Part shown: positions 45,386 to 60,985 of the stretch, piece after piece
Layout of the letters: every line of letters starts with the position of its first letter
Position numbering within the stretch: the first letter of the stretch is position 1
DNA from: Alphaproteobacteria bacterium
GTDB lineage: Bacteria; Pseudomonadota; Alphaproteobacteria; UBA9219
Assembly: GCA_026225415.1 (NCBI GenBank)
Contig: JAMFSS010000004.1
Coordinates: forward strand, 1 to 64,000
DNA length: 64,000 nt
Direction: 5' to 3'
Position numbers and translations under genes: made by a program
The notes under the pieces: generated by a model
Databases searched by the model: none
What the model saw: only the letters and a program-made list of their open reading frames with translations
Told to the model about the DNA's origin: nothing

Positions 45386-46360
45386 ATGGCCGACCAGCCC
45401 GTCATCATCATCAAGCGCATCAAAAAAGGCGGCCATGGCGGCCATCACGGCGGCGCGTGGAAAGTGGCCTATGCCGATTTCGTGACGGCGATGATGTCGT
45501 TCTTTTTGTTGCTGTGGCTGTTGAACGTGACCACTGATGTGCAACGCAAAGGTATCGCCGATTATTTCGCGCCCGCCAGCCTTTCAAAATCGGATTCCGG
45601 CGCGGGCGGCATTTTCGGCGGCCAAACCATCACGGCACCAACGGGTGCGGAAATCAATGACCGTTCGCCGCCTTCCAATCAGGATGTGACCATTCCAACC
45701 GTGGGACAGGGCGAAGAAGGTAACGAAGAGGTGCGCGGCATCAGCGACGGCATAGCCGATGGCAAGGGCGGCGACGGCACCACCACCACGCCCAAAGAAG
45801 CGCAAAATGTCGCCAAGGCGATGGCCGCCGAAGAAGAAAATTTCAAAAAAGCCGCCGATGTTTTGAAGCAGGCGATTTTGGCCAGCCCCGAATTGCAGGG
45901 CTTCGCCAACCAGATCATCATCGACCGCACGCCCGAAGGGTTGCGGATACAGATTATCGACCGCGATAAATTTTCGATGTTCCCGTCGGGCGGCGCTGTG
46001 CCTTATGAACGTGGCCGCGATTTGTTGATGCTGGTCGGCAAAGTGATTGCCCGCATGCCCAACAAAATTTCGGTCACCGGCCATACCGATGGCACGCCCT
46101 TTACCGCCGGTTCGGGGCGCGATAACTGGACGCTGTCGACCGAACGCGCCAATATCAGCCGCGAATATCTTGTGCAGGCAGGCGTGCCCGAACAAAATGT
46201 CGCGCGTGTGTCGGGTCTTGCCGACCGCGATCCGTTTGCGGCCGACCCCAAAGATCCGCGCAACCGCCGTATCAGTATCGTGTTGTTGCGGCAATCGCTG
46301 GCGCCCGCGTCGCTTGTGGCACCGGCAGAACCCGCTGATGCGCCAACAGACACCAAGTAG
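45386..46360 (+). CDS. motB: Flagellar motor stator protein MotB
   Basis: 324 residues. One TM near the N-terminus, AWKVAYADFVTAMMSFFLLL, with the ion-binding Asp in YADF; a linker; and a C-terminal OmpA-like peptidoglycan-binding domain (SVTGHTDGTPF, NWTLSTERANISREYL, PRNRRISIVLLRQ). The extracytoplasmic linker (residues ~65-190) is long and Gly/Thr-rich. The Asp plus the AxxxAF-like context suits a proton-type stator. Follows motA by 11 bases. Confidence 0.97.
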   Translation: MADQPVIIIKRIKKGGHGGHHGGAWKVAYADFVTAMMSFFLLLWLLNVTTDVQRKGIADYFAPASLSKSDSGAGGIFGGQTITAPTGAEINDRSPPSNQDVTIPTVGQGEEGNEEVRGISDGIADGKGGDGTTTTPKEAQNVAKAMAAEEENFKKAADVLKQAILASPELQGFANQIIIDRTPEGLRIQIIDRDKFSMFPSGGAVPYERGRDLLMLVGKVIARMPNKISVTGHTDGTPFTAGSGRDNWTLSTERANISREYLVQAGVPEQNVARVSGLADRDPFAADPKDPRNRRISIVLLRQSLAPASLVAPAEPADAPTDTK

Positions 46361-48074: not shown

Positions 48075-48977
48075 TCACGAGGCCTTGCTTTCAATCGGCT
48101 TGGTATCATGGAAACGCGTGTAATTAATTTCCATCCGGTCGGCATTGCGTTTGATGATATCCTCAAAAACGGCATCGCACAGAATTTCATCGGCAATATA
48201 CGACCGCCGCGCATGGATGGTTTGCGCATAAGTTTCATCCAACCCCGTCAACGACACGATAATTTCCGCCCGCACAGCCTCCAACCCTTTGCGGTCCATT
48301 TTATATAACGGGCTGTTTTTATCGATCGCATGCATAATCGTCCATGTATATTGCATCAACGGCACATGGCTGCGCGCGACGGGAAGATCGTAAAAACGCC
48401 GCATGCGGATGCCTTCCTTGCTGACCGCATCCACCAAAACCACCAGCTGGATTTTCGCATCGACAATACGGTTGCCGCGTTGGTTGGCCAGCCGCAACAT
48501 GAAATGCGGCGTTTCATCATAGGGGCCGATAACGGCAACATCGCTGAACAACACCCGGGCGGTGGGTCGTGATAATTTCGCGAAAACCATGCCGGTCATC
48601 ATCGCGAAAAAACTCAGGCCGAACAACGCTTCGACGCTAACCATGATATTGCCGCCCAAACCAATCGGCGTCAATTTGCCGTAGCCGATTGTGGCCATCG
48701 TCTGCACGCTAAAGAAAAACGCATCCTGAAACGATCCCACGCGCGCATTTTCAATCGCATCACCCAACGCCAGATAGGTGCAGGCGAACAGGATATTACT
48801 AAGCAAATAAAGAAGAATGATATAAAGCGCCAAACGCCACCACGGCGCATCCAGCAGCAACGCGTACAGATCGCTCATCACACGCGTGGAATTACCGATG
48901 CGCACAATTTCAAACCCGTCGCCGCGCGGCACAAGGCGGGAATGGCGGATTTTAGGTTCGGCTTTCTTTTTAGGCAT
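48075..48977 (-). CDS. KirBac-type inward-rectifier potassium channel
   Basis: 300 residues. Two TM helices (WWRLALYIILLYLLSNILFA; ALFGLSFFAMMTGMVFAKLS) flank the pore helix and selectivity filter QTMATIGYGKL with the K+ signature TIGYG. An N-terminal slide helix region lies before them. The cytoplasmic C-terminal immunoglobulin-like domain spans residues ~150-300 and includes RPTARVLFSDVAVI and LMLRLANQRGN-like HFMLRLANQRGNRI, which are KirBac/Kir signatures. It conducts potassium across the inner membrane. Convergent with rppH; its start overlaps the acpS stop by one base. Confidence 0.93.
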   Translation of the reverse strand: MPKKKAEPKIRHSRLVPRGDGFEIVRIGNSTRVMSDLYALLLDAPWWRLALYIILLYLLSNILFACTYLALGDAIENARVGSFQDAFFFSVQTMATIGYGKLTPIGLGGNIMVSVEALFGLSFFAMMTGMVFAKLSRPTARVLFSDVAVIGPYDETPHFMLRLANQRGNRIVDAKIQLVVLVDAVSKEGIRMRRFYDLPVARSHVPLMQYTWTIMHAIDKNSPLYKMDRKGLEAVRAEIIVSLTGLDETYAQTIHARRSYIADEILCDAVFEDIIKRNADRMEINYTRFHDTKPIESKAS

Positions 48978-50572: not shown

Positions 50573-53239
50573 ATGCCCGCCACTCAACCTTCTTTTTTGC
50601 CGCAAACCACCGCGCCCGCAACGGAAACAATGACGCCGTTGATGGCGCAATATTTTTCCGTGAAAGACCGGCACAAGGATTGCTTGCTGTTTTTCCGCCT
50701 TGGCGATTTTTATGAATTATTTTTCGATGATGCGGTTGCCGCCGCCAAAATTTTGGACATCGCGCTCACCCGTCGCGGCCAACATCAAGGGCAGGATATC
50801 CCCATGTGCGGCGTGCCCGCGCATGCCTACGAAGCCTATCTGGCCAAACTGATCCGCGCCGGTTGCCGCGTGGCGATCTGCGAACAAAAAGAATCCCCCG
50901 AAGAAGCAAAAAAGCGCGGCGCGAAATCCATCGTGACGCGCGATGTCGTGCGCATTATCACGCCCGGTACCATTACCGAAGACGGTTTGCTGGATGCGCG
51001 CTCCGCCAATTATCTGGCATGCCTGACATCGGTGGGGGATGAAATCGCCGTCGCCTGGTGCGATATCGTCAGCGGCCACATCGCCGCGCAAAGCGTCATG
51101 GTCGAAGACATGTCGGGCGTGCTGGCGCGATTGGATGCCAGCGAAATTCTGATCGCGCAAAGGCTGGTGGAAAAGCCCGAATTATTTGAAATTCTGGCAC
51201 CGTGGCGCACCAAGCTCGCGCCGCAACCCAATGGCCGTTTTGACAGCGACAACGGCAGGCGGCGCCTGCAGGCAATCTATGAAGTCAGTGATTTGGCATC
51301 ATTTGGTGACTTTTCCCGTTCGGAAATTGCCGCGCTCGGCGCGTTGCTTGATTATGTCGAACTGACACAAAAAACCGACCTCAAGCATTTTTTGCGTCCG
51401 CAAAAGACGGGTGGCGCACAAATGGCGATTGATGCCGCCACGCGTCGCAATCTGGAACTCACGCGCACCTTGTCGGGCGAACGGCGCGGCAGTTTGCTGG
51501 ATGTTATCGACCGCACCGAAACGGGCGCGGGGGCGCGTTTGCTGGCCTCGCGCCTCACTTCGCCGCTTACGGATATCCATGCGATAGCGGCGCGGTTGGA
51601 TAGCGTCGCGTTTTTCGTGGCGCAAAACCCTCTGCGCGAAAATATCTGCAAAGCCTTACGCCAATCGCCCGATCTGGAACGCGCCCTTGCGCGGCTGGCT
51701 TTGGGGCGCGGCGGCCCGCGCGATCTCGCCAGCGTGCGCGACGCATTAAAACAGGCCGAAGCGATACGCAGCGTCTTGCTGGCATCCGGCACAATGCCGA
51801 CAGATATTCGCGAAGACGCCAAACATCTGGGCGAACATAATGCGTTGATAGATAAACTGCATCGCGCCTTGGCTGCCGATTTGCCGATGTTGGCGCGTGA
51901 CGGCAATTTCATCGCGCGTGGCTATGCCGCGCAACTGGATGAATTGATGACGCTGCGCGATGACGGGCGGCGTCTGGTGGCGGCGATGCAGCAAAAATAT
52001 GCAACCCATACCGGCATCGCGACGCTTAAAATCAAACATAACAATGTCATCGGCTATCACATCGAAGTATCGCCCGCACAGGCCGACAAGGTGATGAATG
52101 ACAAGGATACGTTTATCCACCGCCAAACCTTGGCCAGCGCGGCGCGTTTCACCACGGTGGAATTATCCGAACTGGAACGCAAAATAACCGAAGCCGCCGA
52201 CAAAGCCCTGGCGGTTGAAATGCAATTGTTCGGCGATCTGGTGAATGAAGTCACCCAACGTCTGGTCGATTTGCACCACACGGCGCTGGCGCTCGCAGCG
52301 CTTGATGTCGCTTCGGCTCTGGCCGAACTCGCGGTCGAACAAAATTATGCGCGGCCCGTGGTCGATGCGTCGTTGGAATTTAAAATTATCGGTGGACGCC
52401 ATCCGGTGGTGGAACAGGCGCTCCGCAAACAAAATGCGGGCGCTGCGTTTATCGCCAATGAATGCGATCTGTCGCCCGCGCAACATCTGTGGTTACTGAC
52501 GGGGCCCAATATGGCCGGTAAATCCACTTTTTTGCGGCAAAACGCGCTCATCGCCTTGCTGGCGCAAATCGGGTCGTTCGTGCCCGCAACATCGGCGCAT
52601 ATCGGTGTCGTCGACAGGCTGTTCAGCCGTGTCGGCGCTGCCGATGATCTGGCGGCAGGCCGTTCAACCTTTATGGTTGAAATGGTCGAAACCGCCGCGA
52701 TTTTGACTCAGGCCGGTAATCGCGCGTTGGTCATTCTCGATGAAATCGGGCGCGGCACCTCGACCTATGACGGGCTTTCGATCGCGTGGGCGGTGTTGGA
52801 ACATCTGCACGAAGTCAACAAATGCCGCGCGTTATTTGCCACGCATTATCATGAACTCACGGCGCTTGCGGAAAAACTCCCGGCGCTTCGCCGCGCCACG
52901 ATGCGCATCCGTGAATGGGAAAACCGCGTGATCTTCATGCATGAAGTGATCGAAGGTGTCGCCGACCGGTCATACGGCATTCATGTCGCGCAAATGGCGG
53001 GCTTGCCCGTTTCGGCAATCGCCCGGGCATCGCAAGTGTTGGCGGGTTTGGAAGCGGATAAGTTGAAACAAGGCAAAATCGCCGACACGCTTCCGGTGTT
53101 TGATGCATCGGCAAAAATTGCGCCCAAAGTGAAAACTATGAAGCCTGAATTGGAAAATATTCTTGCCGAACTTGACCCCGATGCGCTCAGTCCGAAACAG
53201 GCATTAGAGATTCTCTACAAGATCAAGGGTGCGGCTTAA
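50573..53239 (+). CDS. mutS: DNA mismatch repair protein MutS
   Basis: 888 residues from ATG 50573; the frame is open 153 codons upstream, but that part is antisense to pdxJ. Mismatch sensor. The N-terminal domain has [15 protein letters not shown] with the Phe-x-Glu mismatch-binding pair, then the connector, lever and clamp regions, and the ABC ATPase with Walker [18 protein letters not shown], Walker [17 protein letters not shown], signature loop [20 protein letters not shown] in parts, and HYHELTAL. C-terminal region ends [15 protein letters not shown]. Length and motifs indicate MutS1. A weak hairpin terminator follows. Confidence 0.97.
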
Positions 53240-53272: not shown

Positions 53273-53601
53273 GGGTCGTGCGGGGATTCCCGAATTACTT
53301 TCACCCGCATCCAATCGTAGGATGAACATCATCACCAACCCCCAAATGGGCAACAACTTGCCCGTGTTATTTGTTGCCAAACAGAAACGAATTTCATCGC
53401 GCAATGTTAAGCAATTTTAAGATTATCAGCCTGCCACCGGCACAAGATTCGTTTCGCTTACGTTTTTCCTTTGGTTAAAGCTTGGGTTGCCAAAACTGTT
53501 CACAGAAAAATTAATTTACCTTCTGTTAACGCTTCCCATTTACCCCCGAAAACTGTTATGTTGCCCGACTTAATCTGGACACGGATTGAGCATGATTTGT
53601 T

Positions 53602-53622: not shown

Positions 53623-53672
53623 CGCGGGTTAAGGCACAACAAATAAACAGTAATTGGAATTTAGAGGTTCAA

Positions 53673-56600
53673 ATGGCTCTGCAGAAGACTCCGATGACCG
53701 CTGCTCCTGCAAAAGGTTCCGCCCCCATTCCTTCAATTCCCAAGCCAATGGCTCAACCCCATGCGCAAAAACCCGCTTTATTAGCAGGTCTGGGCTCCCT
53801 TCCTTTCTGGATCGGCCTTTCGGTCTCGGTCGCCTGGGTGGCAATCGTTATGATGATCATCGCCGTGTCTGGCCCTACGCACAGCCTTGGCGGCATTGCG
53901 CTGGCCGATTGGGCGATTGGTATTTCCGCCGCCGTGTCGCCTGTCGCGATGGTGTGGATGATCACCGCCTATCTGCAACGCGCCGCCGATATCCAGACAA
54001 TCGCCGATCCTTTGCGTCGTCAGCTTACGCTCATCACTGGCGAGTCAGGTGCCGCAGATGCCCGTATCCGTCGTTTTAATCAGGCGATCCGCGAACAAAT
54101 CGAATTACTGCGCAGCGCGCAAACCCTCAGCCAGGATGATCTGGAAGCGGTCATGGATCGTGTGCGCCAACATCGCAGCGATCTGGAACGTTATGAATCC
54201 AACAGCACCCAACAGGTGAAAGAAATCCAGGACGTCGTCCGCCGCAGCATGTTCCAATTGGAACAGATGATGGATGACAAATTCACGATGCTGAAATTCC
54301 TTGATGGCAAATTGCAGGCCAATGGCGACGGTGTTGCGCGTCAGGTGGAAAGCGTCGGCGAAAATGTCGCGCGTTTGCTGGAAGAAATCGAAACAACCGG
54401 CGCGCGCGTCGCCGACTCGCTCGACCGCGCCCAACGCGACAGCCAGAAACTGGCCGATACATCGGCGCTACAGGCGTCCAGCCTGACCAATGCGGCCGAA
54501 GTCGCCTCGGAAACACTGGGCGGTTTGTCCAGCAAGATCGATCTCAGCGTTGCGCGTTTTCTTGAACGCGCTTCGTCCGCGCGTGAAGAAGCGGAACGTC
54601 TGGCCTTGGCCTTGGATGCGCAAACCCGTTCTTTGGATGATTTCAGCTCGACCTTGCCCATGCGCGTGTCGGAGGCGGAATCCGTCCTTCGCGGCGTTGC
54701 CGACCGTCTGTACGCCAGCGAACAGATGGCGCGTGAACAAGCCGTCCATCTGAGCGACAAGCTGTCGCAACAGGTCGACGGTCTGCAAAGCTTTATGGAT
54801 CGTTTTACCGGACGTTTGTCCGATATCGATGCCGGTCTTGACCGTCGTCAGTCAGATTTAAATAATCTGGCCGAACGTATCGGCACGACCACATCGGGTT
54901 TTGTAACATCGTGGGAAAAGTCGGTTAATGATCTGAACGACCGCACCGGCAACACCTTGTTGCGCTTTACGGTGGTGAATGATGAAACGCGCCGCAATGC
55001 CGAAGCGGTGACCACCCATCTGAATGAAACGACCAGCAAGTATGAAGACGCCGCTATCCGCGTGCGCGCGTTGTCACAGGAAAGCAACCAGCAGATGAAG
55101 GGTCTGACCGAAGAAGTCGCCCATCAGCTGTCGCAGTTTGAAAGCCTGAGTAAGGCATCGAACATGGCCGGCGAAGAAGTGCAGCAACGCGCTTCGATTG
55201 CGCTCGAAAATCTGCAACATGTTCTGGAACGTATTTTGGCGGCGCGTGAAGCGACGCAAACCGTTGGCGAAACATTGGTGAAGGACATCAATATCGCCGT
55301 CGATGAAAACGAAAAGATGATCCAGCGTTTGTCGGAAACCGCCCAGCTTGGCGTGCGCGCCCTTGCCGCCGCGACCGATCAATTGAACCGCCAACAATCG
55401 GACGTTGCCGGTCAATCCAAAGCATCGGAAGGCGTGTTGGTTGAATCGGTGCAGAAACTGCAACAACAGGCCGATACCGCGTGTAACGCTTTGCGCGATC
55501 AGGCGCATGTGTTGACCCATTTGCTGTCGGAAACGCAAGGCCAGTTGATTGCGACCGACCAGAAATTGCAAAATTTTGCTCTGTCGGCTGTCACGCCCGT
55601 TCAATCGGCGATCAAGCAAATCGACAACAGCGCGGATGCGGGCATGCGTTCACTGGCGCATTTCGGCGACGGCCTGACGGCGCAAGTCACGCGTTTACAG
55701 GATTTCCACGGACGCATCGGCGGCATGAGCGAGGAAATGAGCAAGGCGACCGCGGAATCCGCGCAATCGCTGGAAAGCCTCAGCGCGCGTTTCGTGGCGG
55801 CCCGTTCGCAACAGGAAGAAGCAGTGCGCGGCACCTTGGCGCAATTCGCCGAATTGTCGGATCGTCTGCAACGCGAAGTGTCGGGTCTTGACGGCCATGC
55901 GGCGCAATCGGTCGAATTGTTGCAACAATCGGCGCTTAAGGTTGGCGAACAATCTTACCAGATGCTGCAAAACGCCCAATCATCAGGCGCACAGATCAAG
56001 GACATCGCGGCTTCCTTGCAAAACGAAGCGGCGCAAATCCAATCCACCATGCTGCAAAACGCCCAGGCAACAGGCGCGCAGATTAAGGATATTTCGGCGG
56101 CCCTGCAAAACGAAGCGGTACAAATTCAATCCGTGTTGCGCAAGCAGACCGAAGAAATCGACGGCGATCTGTCAAAGGCGCAACAGAAATTCACTTCGCT
56201 TGGCGAAACGATCCGCGAGCGGGCTGACGCCACCTATGCATTGCTCGACCGCGCCGTCGCGCATTATGGCGACATCAACCACAAACTCGATACTGTCGGT
56301 TCGGACGCCGCGCGTATCGAAGCGCAGGCCGCCGACATCGCCACCACCACCACACGCACCGTGCAAAATCTGTCGGTGCTGAACGATAAAATGACCGTGA
56401 CGCATGATATGGCGACGACACAGGCGCAACAGACTTTGGCCAAGCTGGACGAAACAACGGCGGTCTTCCATCGCCGCGCCGCCGACATGAACGACATCGC
56501 GCAACAAGCGACCAGCAGCGTTATCAATGCCGGCACTGTTTACGGCGAACAAAGCGGCAAGCTGGTCGATTGCAGCCATCAGGTCGATGGCGTGTTGCGT

Positions 56601-59600
56601 CAATTGACGCAGGCGACAACCGCGCTCACCGATCAGGCCGCGCAGATTCGCAACGGTATGGAACAACAAAATAACCGTTTGCTGGCGCAACTGGCGGATT
56701 CCGTCGCACAGCTGGACGTTACAGGCGGCAAGCTACAACAAATCGCGTCTGTCGCGGTACAGGGTGCCGATCAGGCCTCCGCCCGCTTCAGCGATATGAC
56801 AGAAACGGCATCGCAACGCATCACGGCCTCCTCGCAAGATTTGCACGCGATGACCGAACGCGCCGAAGCCGCCTTGTCGGCTTTGGGTGCCAACGTCACG
56901 CAACAGGCGGCTTCGCTGTCGGTTGTCGGCGAACAATTGAGCGAACAACAAAAAACCTTGGCCGTTGCGAATGAAAAACAACGCGTGCAAATGACCGACC
57001 TGTTTGAAAAACTGGGCGCGGCGCATCATCAGGCTTCGGAAATCGCCGAACGCTCGATCGGTTTCCTCACGGAAAATCTGCAAGAAATCCACCGCCAGAT
57101 GGGCGCTGTGGGCGACCAATCGCAAACGGCAGTCGGCAATGTCAAACTGGCCAGCATGGGCTTCTCGGAACAGGCATCCCTGCTGATCCATAACGCGCAG
57201 GCGGCGGAACAACAGGCGCGTACCGTTTTGTCTGTAACCTCTGCGTTACAGGAACAGGCGCGTCATCTGCGGGAAAGCTTGACCAACGAAAGCGACCGCG
57301 CGGGCGAAAGCCTTGGCGTCTTGCTGGGCCGTTTGACATCGGGCGGCGCCGAAATGCGCGATCTGGGCACCAACACCCATACGGTTCTGGCGACCCTGCA
57401 ACGGGCGATGGCCGAACAAAATGGCGAACTTTCCACCGGGATGCAGCACATCACCGAACGTCAGCGCAACCTGACATCGTCGCTCGATGCGCAACGCGAC
57501 GCGATCAATGGCTTGCTCAACCGTTTGACCTTGGCGCAGGACGAAACCGCATCGGTCGCCGAACGCACCGCACTGCGTTTGACGGACGGCACCGCGCAAA
57601 TCACGCGCCATGTCGAAACACTGGATGCGCGTTCACAAAGCGCGTTGGCGAATGTGCAGGCGGCGGTCAGCGGTTTCGCGCATGAAGCGCAGGCGATTGA
57701 AACCCAATCGCAAAAAGCCGAACAGCAATCGCGGAATATCCTTACCGCCGCGTCCGGCATGCATGAACAAATCAGCGATTTGCGCCAGACGATGCAGGGC
57801 GATGGCGAACGCACTAATGTGTTGTTCTCCAACCTGCTTGATAAGGTCACGATGGGCGCCGCCGAATTGCGCGATCTCAGCGCGGCTACCGAAATGTCGC
57901 TTATCAGCCTTGGCAACAATGTCACGCAACAAAGCGGCGCGTTGACATCGACCATGCAACAAATCGCCGACCGCCAACGCAGCCTCGCGGTGGCGTTGGA
58001 TTCGCAACGCGATGTCGTTAATGGGTTGCTCAACCGCCTGACCTTGGCGCAAGACGAAACCGCGTCGGTCGCAGACCGCACCGTGACCCGTCTGGCCGAT
58101 GGCGCGCAAGCGATCATCCGCAATGCCGACGCTATCGATGCGCGCACCCAAGCCGCTTTGGCGAATGTGCAATTGGCAACCGAAGCCTTTAGCAAAGAAG
58201 CCGAAGCGATCGACACGCAAGCCAAGCAAGCCGAAGTTCAGGCGCAATCCATTCTGGCCTCGGCGTCCGGCCTGCATCACCAGATTTACGACCTTCGCAC
58301 ATCCATGCAAAGCGACGGCGAACGCGCCACCGAAGTATTGGCCGGCCTGTTCAACCGCATCACGGTTGGCAGCGGCGAAGTGCGCGATGCCGGCGGCGCG
58401 GCGGAAGCCACGCTTGTATCGTTGCAACGCGCGATGGGCGAACAAACGGGCGAGCTGTACACATCGATGCAGAAAATCGGCGAACGCCAACGCAGCCTGA
58501 CGGAATCTCTGGAACAACAACGCGAAACCATTGGCGGCCTTATCGCCCGCTTTGCCACCGCGCAGGATGAAACCGCGTCGTTGGCCGAACGGACGGCAGA
58601 CCGTATTCATGACGGCGCCCAGAAAATCACCACCAGCCTCGATCTTATCGGCGCGTCGGCGGGTGCGACCCTGGCCAGTGTTGCTGAATCGGTTGCCGGG
58701 TTCGGCGATCAGGTTTCCGCGCTTAATATCCAAAGCCAGCAAGCCGAACAACAAATCCGTGGCGTGCTGTCGGTTACCGCCGGCATGCAGGAACAGGCAC
58801 GCCATCTGCGCGAAGCGATGCAGGTGGAAACCGCCCGCGCCGTCGAACATTTGTCGGACGTTATCGCCACGCTGGATCAAACCAGCCTGCATCTGAAAAC
58901 CGAAAGCGGCATCGCCATCGAAACATTGGACAAGACAGCCCAACGTTTCACCATCATCACCGAAACCGGCGTGGACAGTTTGCGTCAACAATCCGCTGCC
59001 GTGGCGCAAAGCGTCGCGCAATCGGAAACACAGATGAAGAGTATCGGCGACCAAATTGGCGGCCATCTGCGTCTGGTCACCGAAGCGGGCGACAAAGCCG
59101 AAACGCAAACGCGCACTTTGGCCGATGCGTCCGAATTTGCCACCACGCGTTTGGCCGCCTTGCGCGACACTCTGGGCGCCAGCGCCAAAGACGGAACGGC
59201 CTTTGTCGAATTGTCGACCAAGCGTATTACGATGGTCAAAGACGCGTTACAGGAACAGCTCGATCATTTGTCGGCCTTCTCGCAACAAGCGGTACAACAG
59301 GTTGCCGTCGCCAGCGAAAGTTTGGCCAGCGAAAGCGACAGGCTGAACGCCAAACTGGCGGCATCCGAATCCGCTTTGACAGGCGCCGCCGATCTGGTGC
59401 GCGAAGAAGCGAAACATTTGCCCGCCACGCTTAACCGCGGCATCGCCGAAATCGAGGCCGCCAGCGGCGCGATTAAGGCAAACGCCACCGATATGGATCA
59501 GGCGTTGGTGCAAAGTGCCGATCGCTTTATTTCGGTCACATCAATGGCGCGCAACCACATGGCCGAAGAAATGCAACGCGTCAGCAGCGTTGCGGAAGAC

Positions 59601-60737
59601 GCCAGCGGCGTTCTGGTTCGCTTCAACGAAATGCTGGGCGAACAGGTCGCATCGATGCAGCAAAACAGCGCAATGCTGACCTCCGAACAAAAAATACTGG
59701 TGGAAAAAGCCGCGCAAAGCGTCAGCGATTTAACCGCTGCCGGTACGCGTCTGGAAACCTTGCGCAACGAAGCGGCTTCGACCGCCGAACGCATGGTGCA
59801 GGAATTTGTCACGCTCGACCAACGCGCGACAGCCTCCAACGACCGTCTGGTGCAAGCGGGTGACACGATCACACGCCAAGCCGAAGCGATTGGCGAAGTC
59901 GCAGCCCGCGCCGAAACCAAAATCGCGGGTGTCAGCGACGGCCTGCGTGCCCAGCTGGAACATATCCGCGAAGGTATGCAAACCCAGATCGACGATATTA
60001 ACCGCGGCCTGATGCAAATTACGGCGCAATTGGAACGGACAGGCACAACTTTGCGTAACACGGCTGTGGGCGCGGTGGCAGATGTTGAACGCGTGGGGCA
60101 ACGCTTTGAACAGACGGGCGGCGAAGCCGTCGGCCAAGTCGAAGCACGCACCCAACAAATGCGCGATGCCACCGACGACGTCGCCAAGATTTTGGGCGGT
60201 TTCGGCCAACAATTCGATGCGATGTTGCGCCACATGGCCGAAGCCGGAACAGGCATCAAACATCAGGAAAGCGATATGCTGACGCATTTGCAATCCATGT
60301 TGGGTCATCTGGGCACCGTTGCGGAAAAGCTGGAATCGGCACGCGCTTTGTCGGGCGATGTCAGCCAGCACGCCATCGAACGTCTGGACAGCGTTGTGAA
60401 TTCCATCCAGGCGCAGATGAACAACATGACGGCGGGCGCGCAAACGGCGGCCGGCATCATGCGCGGCATCGGCCAGATTTACAGCGACCAATCAGGTTCA
60501 CTGACCAAGGGTGTGGGTGAAGCGCATGCGCAAGTGTTGACGATGAACAAGAGCATCGACGATATGCAAATGCGTACCGACCGCATGCGTCAAGCGTTGA
60601 AGATGCAGGGCGATGATCTGATGAACTCGCTGCGTCAAATCCTGTCGCAACTGGAAATGACGGGTGATGGTTTGTCCGAAGCGGTTGATCGCACTTTGCA
60701 AGAACAGGCCAATGCCGGGTTGAAGAAGATCAGCTAA
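53673..60737 (+). CDS. Giant membrane-anchored coiled-coil protein (TipN/GPR-like polarity factor)
   Basis: 2354 residues from ATG 53673, with AGAGG 7 bases upstream; the frame opens at 53586 but 29 extra residues lie across the leader hairpin. A Pro-rich start (residues 1-45) is followed by two TM segments (LPFWIGLSVSVAWVAIVMMI; AISAAVSPVAMVWMITAYL-like) and ~2200 residues of heptad-type coiled coil rich in Ala, Gln, Glu, Ser. The juxtamembrane block (RRQLTLITGESGAADARIRR, REQIELLRSA, VRQHRSDLERYES) recalls TipN of Caulobacter and GPR of Agrobacterium, both N-terminally anchored coiled coils at the new or growing pole. Contains three exact 171-residue repeats and a 29-residue pair. Role in polarity is inference from architecture. 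Confidence 0.85.
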   Translation: MALQKTPMTAAPAKGSAPIPSIPKPMAQPHAQKPALLAGLGSLPFWIGLSVSVAWVAIVMMIIAVSGPTHSLGGIALADWAIGISAAVSPVAMVWMITAYLQRAADIQTIADPLRRQLTLITGESGAADARIRRFNQAIREQIELLRSAQTLSQDDLEAVMDRVRQHRSDLERYESNSTQQVKEIQDVVRRSMFQLEQMMDDKFTMLKFLDGKLQANGDGVARQVESVGENVARLLEEIETTGARVADSLDRAQRDSQKLADTSALQASSLTNAAEVASETLGGLSSKIDLSVARFLERASSAREEAERLALALDAQTRSLDDFSSTLPMRVSEAESVLRGVADRLYASEQMAREQAVHLSDKLSQQVDGLQSFMDRFTGRLSDIDAGLDRRQSDLNNLAERIGTTTSGFVTSWEKSVNDLNDRTGNTLLRFTVVNDETRRNAEAVTTHLNETTSKYEDAAIRVRALSQESNQQMKGLTEEVAHQLSQFESLSKASNMAGEEVQQRASIALENLQHVLERILAAREATQTVGETLVKDINIAVDENEKMIQRLSETAQLGVRALAAATDQLNRQQSDVAGQSKASEGVLVESVQKLQQQADTACNALRDQAHVLTHLLSETQGQLIATDQKLQNFALSAVTPVQSAIKQIDNSADAGMRSLAHFGDGLTAQVTRLQDFHGRIGGMSEEMSKATAESAQSLESLSARFVAARSQQEEAVRGTLAQFAELSDRLQREVSGLDGHAAQSVELLQQSALKVGEQSYQMLQNAQSSGAQIKDIAASLQNEAAQIQSTMLQNAQATGAQIKDISAALQNEAVQIQSVLRKQTEEIDGDLSKAQQKFTSLGETIRERADATYALLDRAVAHYGDINHKLDTVGSDAARIEAQAADIATTTTRTVQNLSVLNDKMTVTHDMATTQAQQTLAKLDETTAVFHRRAADMNDIAQQATSSVINAGTVYGEQSGKLVDCSHQVDGVLRQLTQATTALTDQAAQIRNGMEQQNNRLLAQLADSVAQLDVTGGKLQQIASVAVQGADQASARFSDMTETASQRITASSQDLHAMTERAEAALSALGANVTQQAASLSVVGEQLSEQQKTLAVANEKQRVQMTDLFEKLGAAHHQASEIAERSIGFLTENLQEIHRQMGAVGDQSQTAVGNVKLASMGFSEQASLLIHNAQAAEQQARTVLSVTSALQEQARHLRESLTNESDRAGESLGVLLGRLTSGGAEMRDLGTNTHTVLATLQRAMAEQNGELSTGMQHITERQRNLTSSLDAQRDAINGLLNRLTLAQDETASVAERTALRLTDGTAQITRHVETLDARSQSALANVQAAVSGFAHEAQAIETQSQKAEQQSRNILTAASGMHEQISDLRQTMQGDGERTNVLFSNLLDKVTMGAAELRDLSAATEMSLISLGNNVTQQSGALTSTMQQIADRQRSLAVALDSQRDVVNGLLNRLTLAQDETASVADRTVTRLADGAQAIIRNADAIDARTQAALANVQLATEAFSKEAEAIDTQAKQAEVQAQSILASASGLHHQIYDLRTSMQSDGERATEVLAGLFNRITVGSGEVRDAGGAAEATLVSLQRAMGEQTGELYTSMQKIGERQRSLTESLEQQRETIGGLIARFATAQDETASLAERTADRIHDGAQKITTSLDLIGASAGATLASVAESVAGFGDQVSALNIQSQQAEQQIRGVLSVTAGMQEQARHLREAMQVETARAVEHLSDVIATLDQTSLHLKTESGIAIETLDKTAQRFTIITETGVDSLRQQSAAVAQSVAQSETQMKSIGDQIGGHLRLVTEAGDKAETQTRTLADASEFATTRLAALRDTLGASAKDGTAFVELSTKRITMVKDALQEQLDHLSAFSQQAVQQVAVASESLASESDRLNAKLAASESALTGAADLVREEAKHLPATLNRGIAEIEAASGAIKANATDMDQALVQSADRFISVTSMARNHMAEEMQRVSSVAEDASGVLVRFNEMLGEQVASMQQNSAMLTSEQKILVEKAAQSVSDLTAAGTRLETLRNEAASTAERMVQEFVTLDQRATASNDRLVQAGDTITRQAEAIGEVAARAETKIAGVSDGLRAQLEHIREGMQTQIDDINRGLMQITAQLERTGTTLRNTAVGAVADVERVGQRFEQTGGEAVGQVEARTQQMRDATDDVAKILGGFGQQFDAMLRHMAEAGTGIKHQESDMLTHLQSMLGHLGTVAEKLESARALSGDVSQHAIERLDSVVNSIQAQMNNMTAGAQTAAGIMRGIGQIYSDQSGSLTKGVGEAHAQVLTMNKSIDDMQMRTDRMRQALKMQGDDLMNSLRQILSQLEMTGDGLSEAVDRTLQEQANAGLKKIS
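55962..56135 (+). repeat. Two 87-bp tandem repeats inside the giant gene
   Basis: Two units of 29 codons, starting at 55962 and 56049, each beginning MLQNAQ and including GAQIKDI and LQNEA.QIQS. Near-identical bases suggest recent duplication in phase with the coiled coil. Confidence 0.85.
57318..58856 (+). repeat. Three 513-bp tandem repeats inside the giant gene
   Basis: Units start at 57318, 57831 and 58344, exactly 513 bases (171 codons) apart. Each has LL...T.G..E.RDL, ERQR.L, AQDETAS.A.RT and a block of Q-rich helix. A partial, older copy precedes the first unit (about 57001-57317). Confidence 0.85.
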
Positions 60738-60765
60738 GGCTTTCTTTTAAGGCTCAATGGATAAA

Positions 60766-60799
60766 TCCCTCTCCGCCCGTCTTTACGGGGGGAGAGGGA
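60766..60799. repeat. REP-like hairpin, left copy
   Basis: TCCCTCTCCGCCCGT pairs with ACGGGGGGAGAGGGA (one mismatch), loop CTTT. Same family as 2318-2346. Confidence 0.7.
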
Positions 60800-60837
60800 A
60801 GCCCTCACAGAACCCACAAGCACAGAATATAAATAAA

Positions 60838-60898
60838 GGTGAGGTGGGTGTCTCAATAATCCGAATACCGGATTGTTGGCAAACCCACCTCACCCCAT
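60838..60898. repeat. Central inverted repeat of the palindromic element
   Basis: AGGTGAGGTGGGT and ACCCACCTCACC are inverted copies separated by about 35 bases, with a smaller CCGAATACCGG core. Lies between the two REP-like hairpins, giving a nested arrangement. Confidence 0.6.
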
Positions 60899-60930
60899 TT
60901 TTTATTCTACTTGCTGATATTTTGGTATCT

Positions 60931-60963
60931 CCCCTCTCCCCCCGAAGTACGGGCGGAGAGGGG
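60931..60963. repeat. REP-like hairpin, right copy
   Basis: CCCCTCTCCCCCCG pairs with CGGGCGGAGAGGGG (one mismatch), loop AAGTA. Confidence 0.7.
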
Positions 60964-60985
60964 TATCAACATCCAGCTTACAGCA

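Follow-up and report, generated by a model that had tools for sequence, protein, structure and literature searches.

The closest described relatives of the protein presented here are GPR and RgsE, which organise polar growth in Rhizobiales (PMC8262873, PMC7327166). Agrobacterium GPR is described as a ring of six foci, ~200 nm wide, positioned near the growing tip; PF01442 is its published hallmark, and GPR deprived of its C-terminal end fails to complement (PMC8262873). The published lengths are 2,115 aa for GPR and 2,089 aa for Sinorhizobium meliloti RgsE, which interacts with TolQ in Sinorhizobium (PMC7327166). Distant RgsE homologues are also reported in Emcibacterales and Rhodospirillales (PMC7327166), and the spread of such proteins outside Rhizobiales is therefore not new in itself. 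Caulobacter TipN combines two N-terminal transmembrane segments with a large C-terminal coiled coil (PMC9178275) and interacts with the Tol-Pal complex, which persists at the new pole once division is complete (PMC7403779). PodJ, a further coiled-coil polar scaffold of Alphaproteobacteria, begins with a cytoplasmic coil, followed by a membrane segment and a C-terminal periplasmic part (PMC10127582).

The gene under study lies in a window of 64,000 nucleotides (the whole stretch of alphaproteobacterial DNA that was analysed) and encodes a membrane-anchored coiled-coil protein in an order other than that of Agrobacterium and its kin. It resembles GPR and RgsE in its two N-terminal membrane helices, in the predicted cytoplasmic location of its bulk (hydropathy and charge), in ~2,000 residues that may be helical, and in an anchor domain shown by profile comparisons to be homologous. 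The likeness to TipN is architectural only: the layout is alike, as judged by the printed description only (PMC9178275), and the host genome carries MreB, PF10691 and tolQ, the same as the Caulobacter control genome. The PodJ layout is not found in the window protein, whose membrane segments are N-terminal. A class-wide alphaproteobacterial family, built from anchor, coil and C-terminal domain, is alike in anchor and coil period; the C-terminal domain, usual in that family, was not found in the window protein's own order. Among the publications listed by literature searches, none showed a description of the order's protein.

The gene, its surroundings and the topology of its product

The gene is real. 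Its open reading frame (ORF) of 2354 aa is the longest in the window, with a runner-up of 1041 aa, and the initial annotation was right to call it the largest gene (Table 1). The ATG at 53673 is favoured over an upstream TTG at 53586 because AGAGG precedes it and because the resulting start, M-x-L-Q-K-T-P, is common to seven congener rows (L003-L009). The protein consists of Ala (14.3%), Leu (10.0%), Gln (9.6%), Ser (8.4%), Thr (7.7%) and Glu (7.0%) as listed residues, and proline is nearly missing beyond residue 150. It had been described as rich in Gln, Ala and Glu, which holds for Ala and Gln but not for Glu, whose share is not notably high. Searches of Pfam and NCBIfam returned generic coil matches only, all under cut-off (SMC at 30 bits, PUB2_N, Baculo_PEP_C), and no catalytic domain was found in either.

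Table 1. Positions of the gene, its parts and neighbouring features in the window
Feature	Position	Strand	Basis or remark
Gene of the 2354-aa membrane-anchored coiled-coil protein	53673..60737	+	ORF; N-terminal relatives in own order
Shine-Dalgarno-like AGAGG before ATG	53663..53667	+	Read from sequence
Anchor domain, residues ~43-144, homologous to GPR	53799..54104	+	Profile comparisons
First membrane helix, residues ~43-65	53799..53867	+	Hydropathy; helix in low-confidence AF2 model
Second membrane helix, residues ~80-99	53910..53969	+	Hydropathy; helix in low-confidence AF2 model; class-invariant P90, W95
Long coil with coherent hydrophobic stripe, period 3.569	54120..60602	+	Spectral power and phase coherence
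Internal repeats of 513 nt (171 aa), with three copies of a 150-nt part	57441..58616	+	Overlap length-variable part of coil
C-terminal tail helix, residues 2314-2328	60612..60656	+	Conserved in order families f1 and f2
mutS, upstream neighbour	50696-53239	+	Same strand as gene
Inward-rectifier-type prokaryotic potassium channel	48075-48977	-	PF17655, PF01007
MotB-like protein	45386-46360	+	MotB_plug and OmpA domain; ~7 kb upstream
Nested inverted repeats directly 3' of gene	60752-60977		40-nt arms 60752-60791 / 60938-60977
Inner 40-nt inverted pair	60824-60908		Between outer arms

The upstream neighbour is mutS. Among the 14 order loci whose upstream sequence extends to 3.8 kb or more, eight have mutS in this position, and this neighbourhood is uninformative as to function. 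Downstream lie an ORF of 174 aa that has no Pfam match and then a histidine kinase. The window also holds a potassium channel gene and a gene for a MotB-like protein. The inverted repeats that follow the gene contain CCTCTCCGCCCG-type palindromes, and the segment resembles a palindromic or MITE-like element.

The two N-terminal transmembrane segments proposed by the initial annotation were recovered by hydropathy, with best windows at ~47-65 and ~81-99. Two such segments are present in all 19 order loci read, under a hydropathy cut-off that divided the window protein's own first segment in two. In the window protein, the N-terminal tail carries charges of +4/-0, the loop 0/0 and the residues that follow the second helix +5/-4. 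The pattern is alike in most order rows, with a neutral N-terminal tail in two f2 rows (L047, L051) and a charged loop in five order rows. Hydropathy and charge alone thus suggest that both ends of the membrane hairpin lie in the cytoplasm, and the coil is probably cytoplasmic because of the charges of the tail, the loop and the segment beyond the second helix.

The anchor domain and its relation to GPR

Reference sequences came from named loci, which are the best 80 of at least 542 stretches confirmed with the C-terminal domain as query; many of these 80 belong to Rhizobiales, including Agrobacterium vitis and Sinorhizobium medicae. Among the 22 of the 80 that were read, stop-to-stop ORFs measure 2278 codons in A. 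vitis CG78 and 2084 codons in S. medicae. Hydropathy gave two segments in 18 of the 22, three in L211, and one each in A. vitis NCPPB 3554, Phyllobacterium and Brucella. PF01442 is matched at 1e-81 in A. vitis and 5e-77 in S. medicae, over 13 stretches in each. The named GPR rows were taken as the right family because PF01442 and the long ORFs match the published description (PMC8262873). In contrast to the many PF01442 stretches of GPR, none was found in the window protein: the family is not listed for it at E up to 10, under filters that drop most matches above ~0.1. Three of four order relatives score 25-59 bits against PF01442 and one has no match, the cut-off being 90 bits.

Searched with a 276-aa query, the N-terminal region has relatives in 27 of the order's 32 genomes; none was found with this query in G008, G012, G019, G026 or G031. 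Profile A1, built from 27 rows of order anchors, matches 24 of the 25 order genomes that are at least 90% complete, and the only miss is G026, an assembly of 320 contigs. The window protein's own genome has a single match, with every candidate scored. Across the class, A1 finds matches in at least 43 of 289 genomes at E <=0.01; the stronger ones cover the membrane helices and the juxtamembrane block, and some weak ones cover coil only. With A3, a broader anchor profile of 32 rows, at least 161 of the 389 genomes searched in the class match at E <=0.001. In window numbering, W55, P90, W95 and Q142 are invariant in A3 and R103 is nearly so. In distant members, A1 alone tends to match the juxtamembrane part or the coil only; among the best 80 named loci, its best-domain E is <1e-3 in 70, some of which may be coil. 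The strongest anchor relative found outside the order is L221 (G116:C10:1-6000), with an A1 E of 6.8e-45 and an ORF of 1460 aa. Another homologue, L067 (G295:C60), contains a single in-frame TAA; its genome is fragmented, and this is a broken gene or an assembly error.

The initial annotation had singled out profile similarity to GPR past generic coiled coil as the observation to look for, and this similarity was found. Compared directly with A6, a profile of 13 named GPR-type N-termini, the order anchor gave an hhalign probability of 90.2% (E 1.5e-6); by way of the class-wide profile, the value was 98.3% (E 2e-14). Taken stepwise, order against class gave 99.8% (E 5e-30), and class against GPR, without L074 as a GPR-like row, gave 97.9% (E 4e-13). 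Reversed profiles scored 0.3% and 0.7%, and six other segments of the order protein scored 0.1-0.9%. The reversed and coil-segment controls being below 1%, the likeness exceeds that of generic coil. The signal from single sequences is weaker. A GPR HMM gave 18.3 bits on the window N-terminus (maximum of 300 block shuffles, 12.2; other window ORFs, 5.8) and 17.1 bits on the full protein. Of 20 order proteins, the same HMM lists 14, with scores between 3.8 (L038) and 20.2 bits (L036); the other six do not appear at E up to 10 (L032, L040, L041, L046, L047, L048). The claim of homology consequently rests on the chain of profile-profile comparisons, because the single-sequence signal is weak; on that basis, the window anchor is homologous to the GPR/RgsE anchor.

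Convergence would be another explanation of the N-terminal likeness, if a hydrophobic hairpin with an amphipathic helix after it were enough to match GPR. The identity of the window anchor to the 13 named GPR-type rows is only 14-20%, and the low-complexity coil, the weak single-sequence scores, the six unlisted proteins and a structural model of low confidence all lean in this direction. However, the reversed-profile, other-segment and block-shuffle controls speak against it, the anchor alignment keeps its register at W55, P90 and R103, and the chain from order to class to GPR is strong at each step, so that we regard convergence as very improbable.

The fold of the anchor was approached by searches of the PDB and by AF2 modelling. 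Nothing significant was retrieved from the PDB with the window N-terminus as a sequence query (best E 0.2), with the anchor profile (best E 0.016) or with the profile of the C-terminal domain (best E 0.013). The AF2 models have a mean pLDDT of 65 for the anchor, a low-confidence value, and of 62 for the GPR C-terminal domain, and neither found a PDB match at E <1. We make no fold claim for either domain because AF2 confidence is low and PDB matches are absent.

The coil, its repeats and the C-terminal end

The coil of ~2,200 residues described by the initial annotation is more than chance. Over residues 150-2354, spectral power reaches 154 at period 3.569, where none of 50 shuffles exceeds 10.9, and phase coherence is 0.81, where none of 100 shuffles exceeds 0.47. 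Local windows of the same residues show a helical stripe in 43/43 cases, as a measure of periodicity and not a helix prediction. Such coherence is shared by others: at the best of the periods tested for each, three GPR-family coils give 0.60, 0.60 and 0.83. The period of the window coil falls between those of a pure heptad (3.5) and a pure hendecad (3.667) and differs from that of the GPR family (3.57 against 3.62-3.67; 3.616-3.667 in five GPR-family proteins from named records). Five class members that are not GPR-like have coil periods of 3.557-3.593, as in the window protein.

In a full-length alignment of 17 sequences, the 16 orthologues range from 1831 to 2527 aa from the chosen start. 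The worst covered part is residues 1351-1650, where the 171-aa repeats fall. The best conserved bin of 75 residues is 76-150 (0.76, next 0.62); after this anchor bin, identity between families is highest in the last bin, by a small margin. The long in-phase stripe, the variation in length that accompanies the repeats and the lack of a detected catalytic domain would all suit a structural coil devoid of a polarity role, namely a filament or spacer, tethered to the membrane, which would make the cell stiffer or give the envelope its shape in the manner of an intermediate filament. Conservation that is by far strongest in the anchor bin, with the last bin next by that small margin, speaks against such a purely structural part, as does the activity of the named homologues at the poles; we consider it unlikely, though deserving of some weight.

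Near the C-terminus, the pattern of a tail helix is found in 15 of the 17 complete order proteins. Three f2 proteins share 9-10 of its 15 residues; coil controls taken at the same place share at most 7, and none reaches 9 anywhere. In two f3 proteins, identities are 7 and 4 of 15, within the range of the control.

The C-terminal domain of ~100 aa, which distinguishes GPR and RgsE from the window protein, was found at a convincing score in none of the 32 order genomes by direct search. The sole match in the order, in G012 (E 0.04, with 7 stops), is a chance one, and hhalign of the order C-terminus against the domain gave 0.2%. In the class, the domain is present in 162 of 389 genomes: in 145 of the at least 161 anchor-positive genomes (counted per genome, not per ORF) and in 17 genomes that have no scored anchor match. 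The 16 genomes with an anchor only are seven sampled genomes of the order, G116 and eight others (E 9e-4 to 6e-15). By eye, 19 of 20 class ORFs read end in the domain, L125 being the exception. Those 19 (L112-L131 minus L125, C-terminal ~140 aa) are not independent evidence for it because the domain profile, A4, was built from them; matches outside A4 are independent, as in G032 (3.2e-46) and G033 (1.9e-41). The domain ends in a motif like LTSDxGKVYxLLAxAxGR, and a scan of five class proteins listed no Pfam or NCBIfam family over it. L221 also lacks the domain, in an assembly (G116) listed at 10% contamination; judging by this protein, the loss may predate the order.

Genome context and a possible role at the septum and the new pole

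Strong MreB matches (>490 bits) are present in 33 of 39 genomes and in 27 of the 32 from the order, own genome included. Partial matches of 275-368 bits were obtained in G005 and G022, both of the order, and in G038; G008, G009 and G017 (79, 96 and 62% complete) gave only weak matches of a different kind in the MreB search. The lack of a strong match in G009, an assembly of 230 contigs, is probably an assembly gap. Unlike the window protein's own genome, four named GPR-bearing genomes (A. vitis, S. medicae, Mesorhizobium loti and Roseibium) showed no strong MreB match, only scores of 54-63 bits; Parvibaculum, the fifth genome reached via the named loci, has a match of 504 bits. PF10691 (database name DUF2497), which we take to be the PopZ family, occurs in 36 of 39 genomes, own included, and in 26/26 of the well-assembled ones; among 14 control genomes, it was found in Caulobacter only. 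tolQ occurs in 35 of 39 genomes, above cut-off in 34, with own genome and 26/26 well-assembled genomes again included.

The initial annotation had proposed a GPR-like scaffold of polarity or of a growth zone. The GPR likeness survives for the membrane-plus-juxtamembrane domain, which is homologous by profile comparison, but does not extend to the full family: the C-terminal domain and PF01442 are missing and MreB is encoded in the genome. The same evidence bears on whether the protein could organise a growth zone as GPR does in the strict sense, through rings at the growing pole that direct peptidoglycan and membrane synthesis. Such a function is exercised by GPR and RgsE in Rhizobiales, and the homologous anchor and the GPR-like size would be in keeping with it. 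It is nonetheless quite unlikely, given strong MreB in most genomes of the order against the 54-63 bits of the four GPR-bearing genomes, and a window protein devoid of both the C-terminal domain and PF01442. With MreB and PF10691 present, a role in polarity, or one leading from septum to pole, is expected over the running of polar growth; a growth-zone scaffold would accordingly be less likely than a polar or septal one, both being readings of function from likeness.

We infer, and on balance hold it probable by analogy with the named relatives, that the window protein belongs to the GPR/RgsE superfamily and serves as a scaffold anchored in the inner membrane, with a rod that lies in the cytoplasm and is attached at the septum and new pole. 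The anchor would gather the protein at these sites, perhaps through binding to Tol-Pal: it would join Tol-Pal or a neighbouring septal complex and then pass to the new pole by inheritance. The coil would reach into the cytoplasm as a rod of at most ~0.33 micrometre (2200 residues x 0.1485 nm, fully extended), and the tail would offer a docking peptide to a partner.

A broader proposal, which we put forward as tentative and possible rather than probable, would make GPR the Rhizobiales member of a class-wide scaffold superfamily composed of anchor, rod and C-terminal cap and recruited by its anchor to the septum and new pole. In the window protein's own order, the cap would have been lost and a docking peptide would stand instead; the in-phase rod, with the same upper limit of length, would serve as a pole-based measuring or tethering rod in a cell that contains MreB.

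The order thus has a real, nearly order-wide variant of a GPR-related scaffold. It sets the GPR-type anchor apart from polar growth, as a homologous anchor is found in an MreB-bearing order and in many other Alphaproteobacteria. Since the anchor is separable from polar growth, its own role, for example in septal or Tol-Pal targeting, becomes testable, and so do the contributions made in Rhizobiales by the C-terminal domain and the apolipoprotein-like coil.
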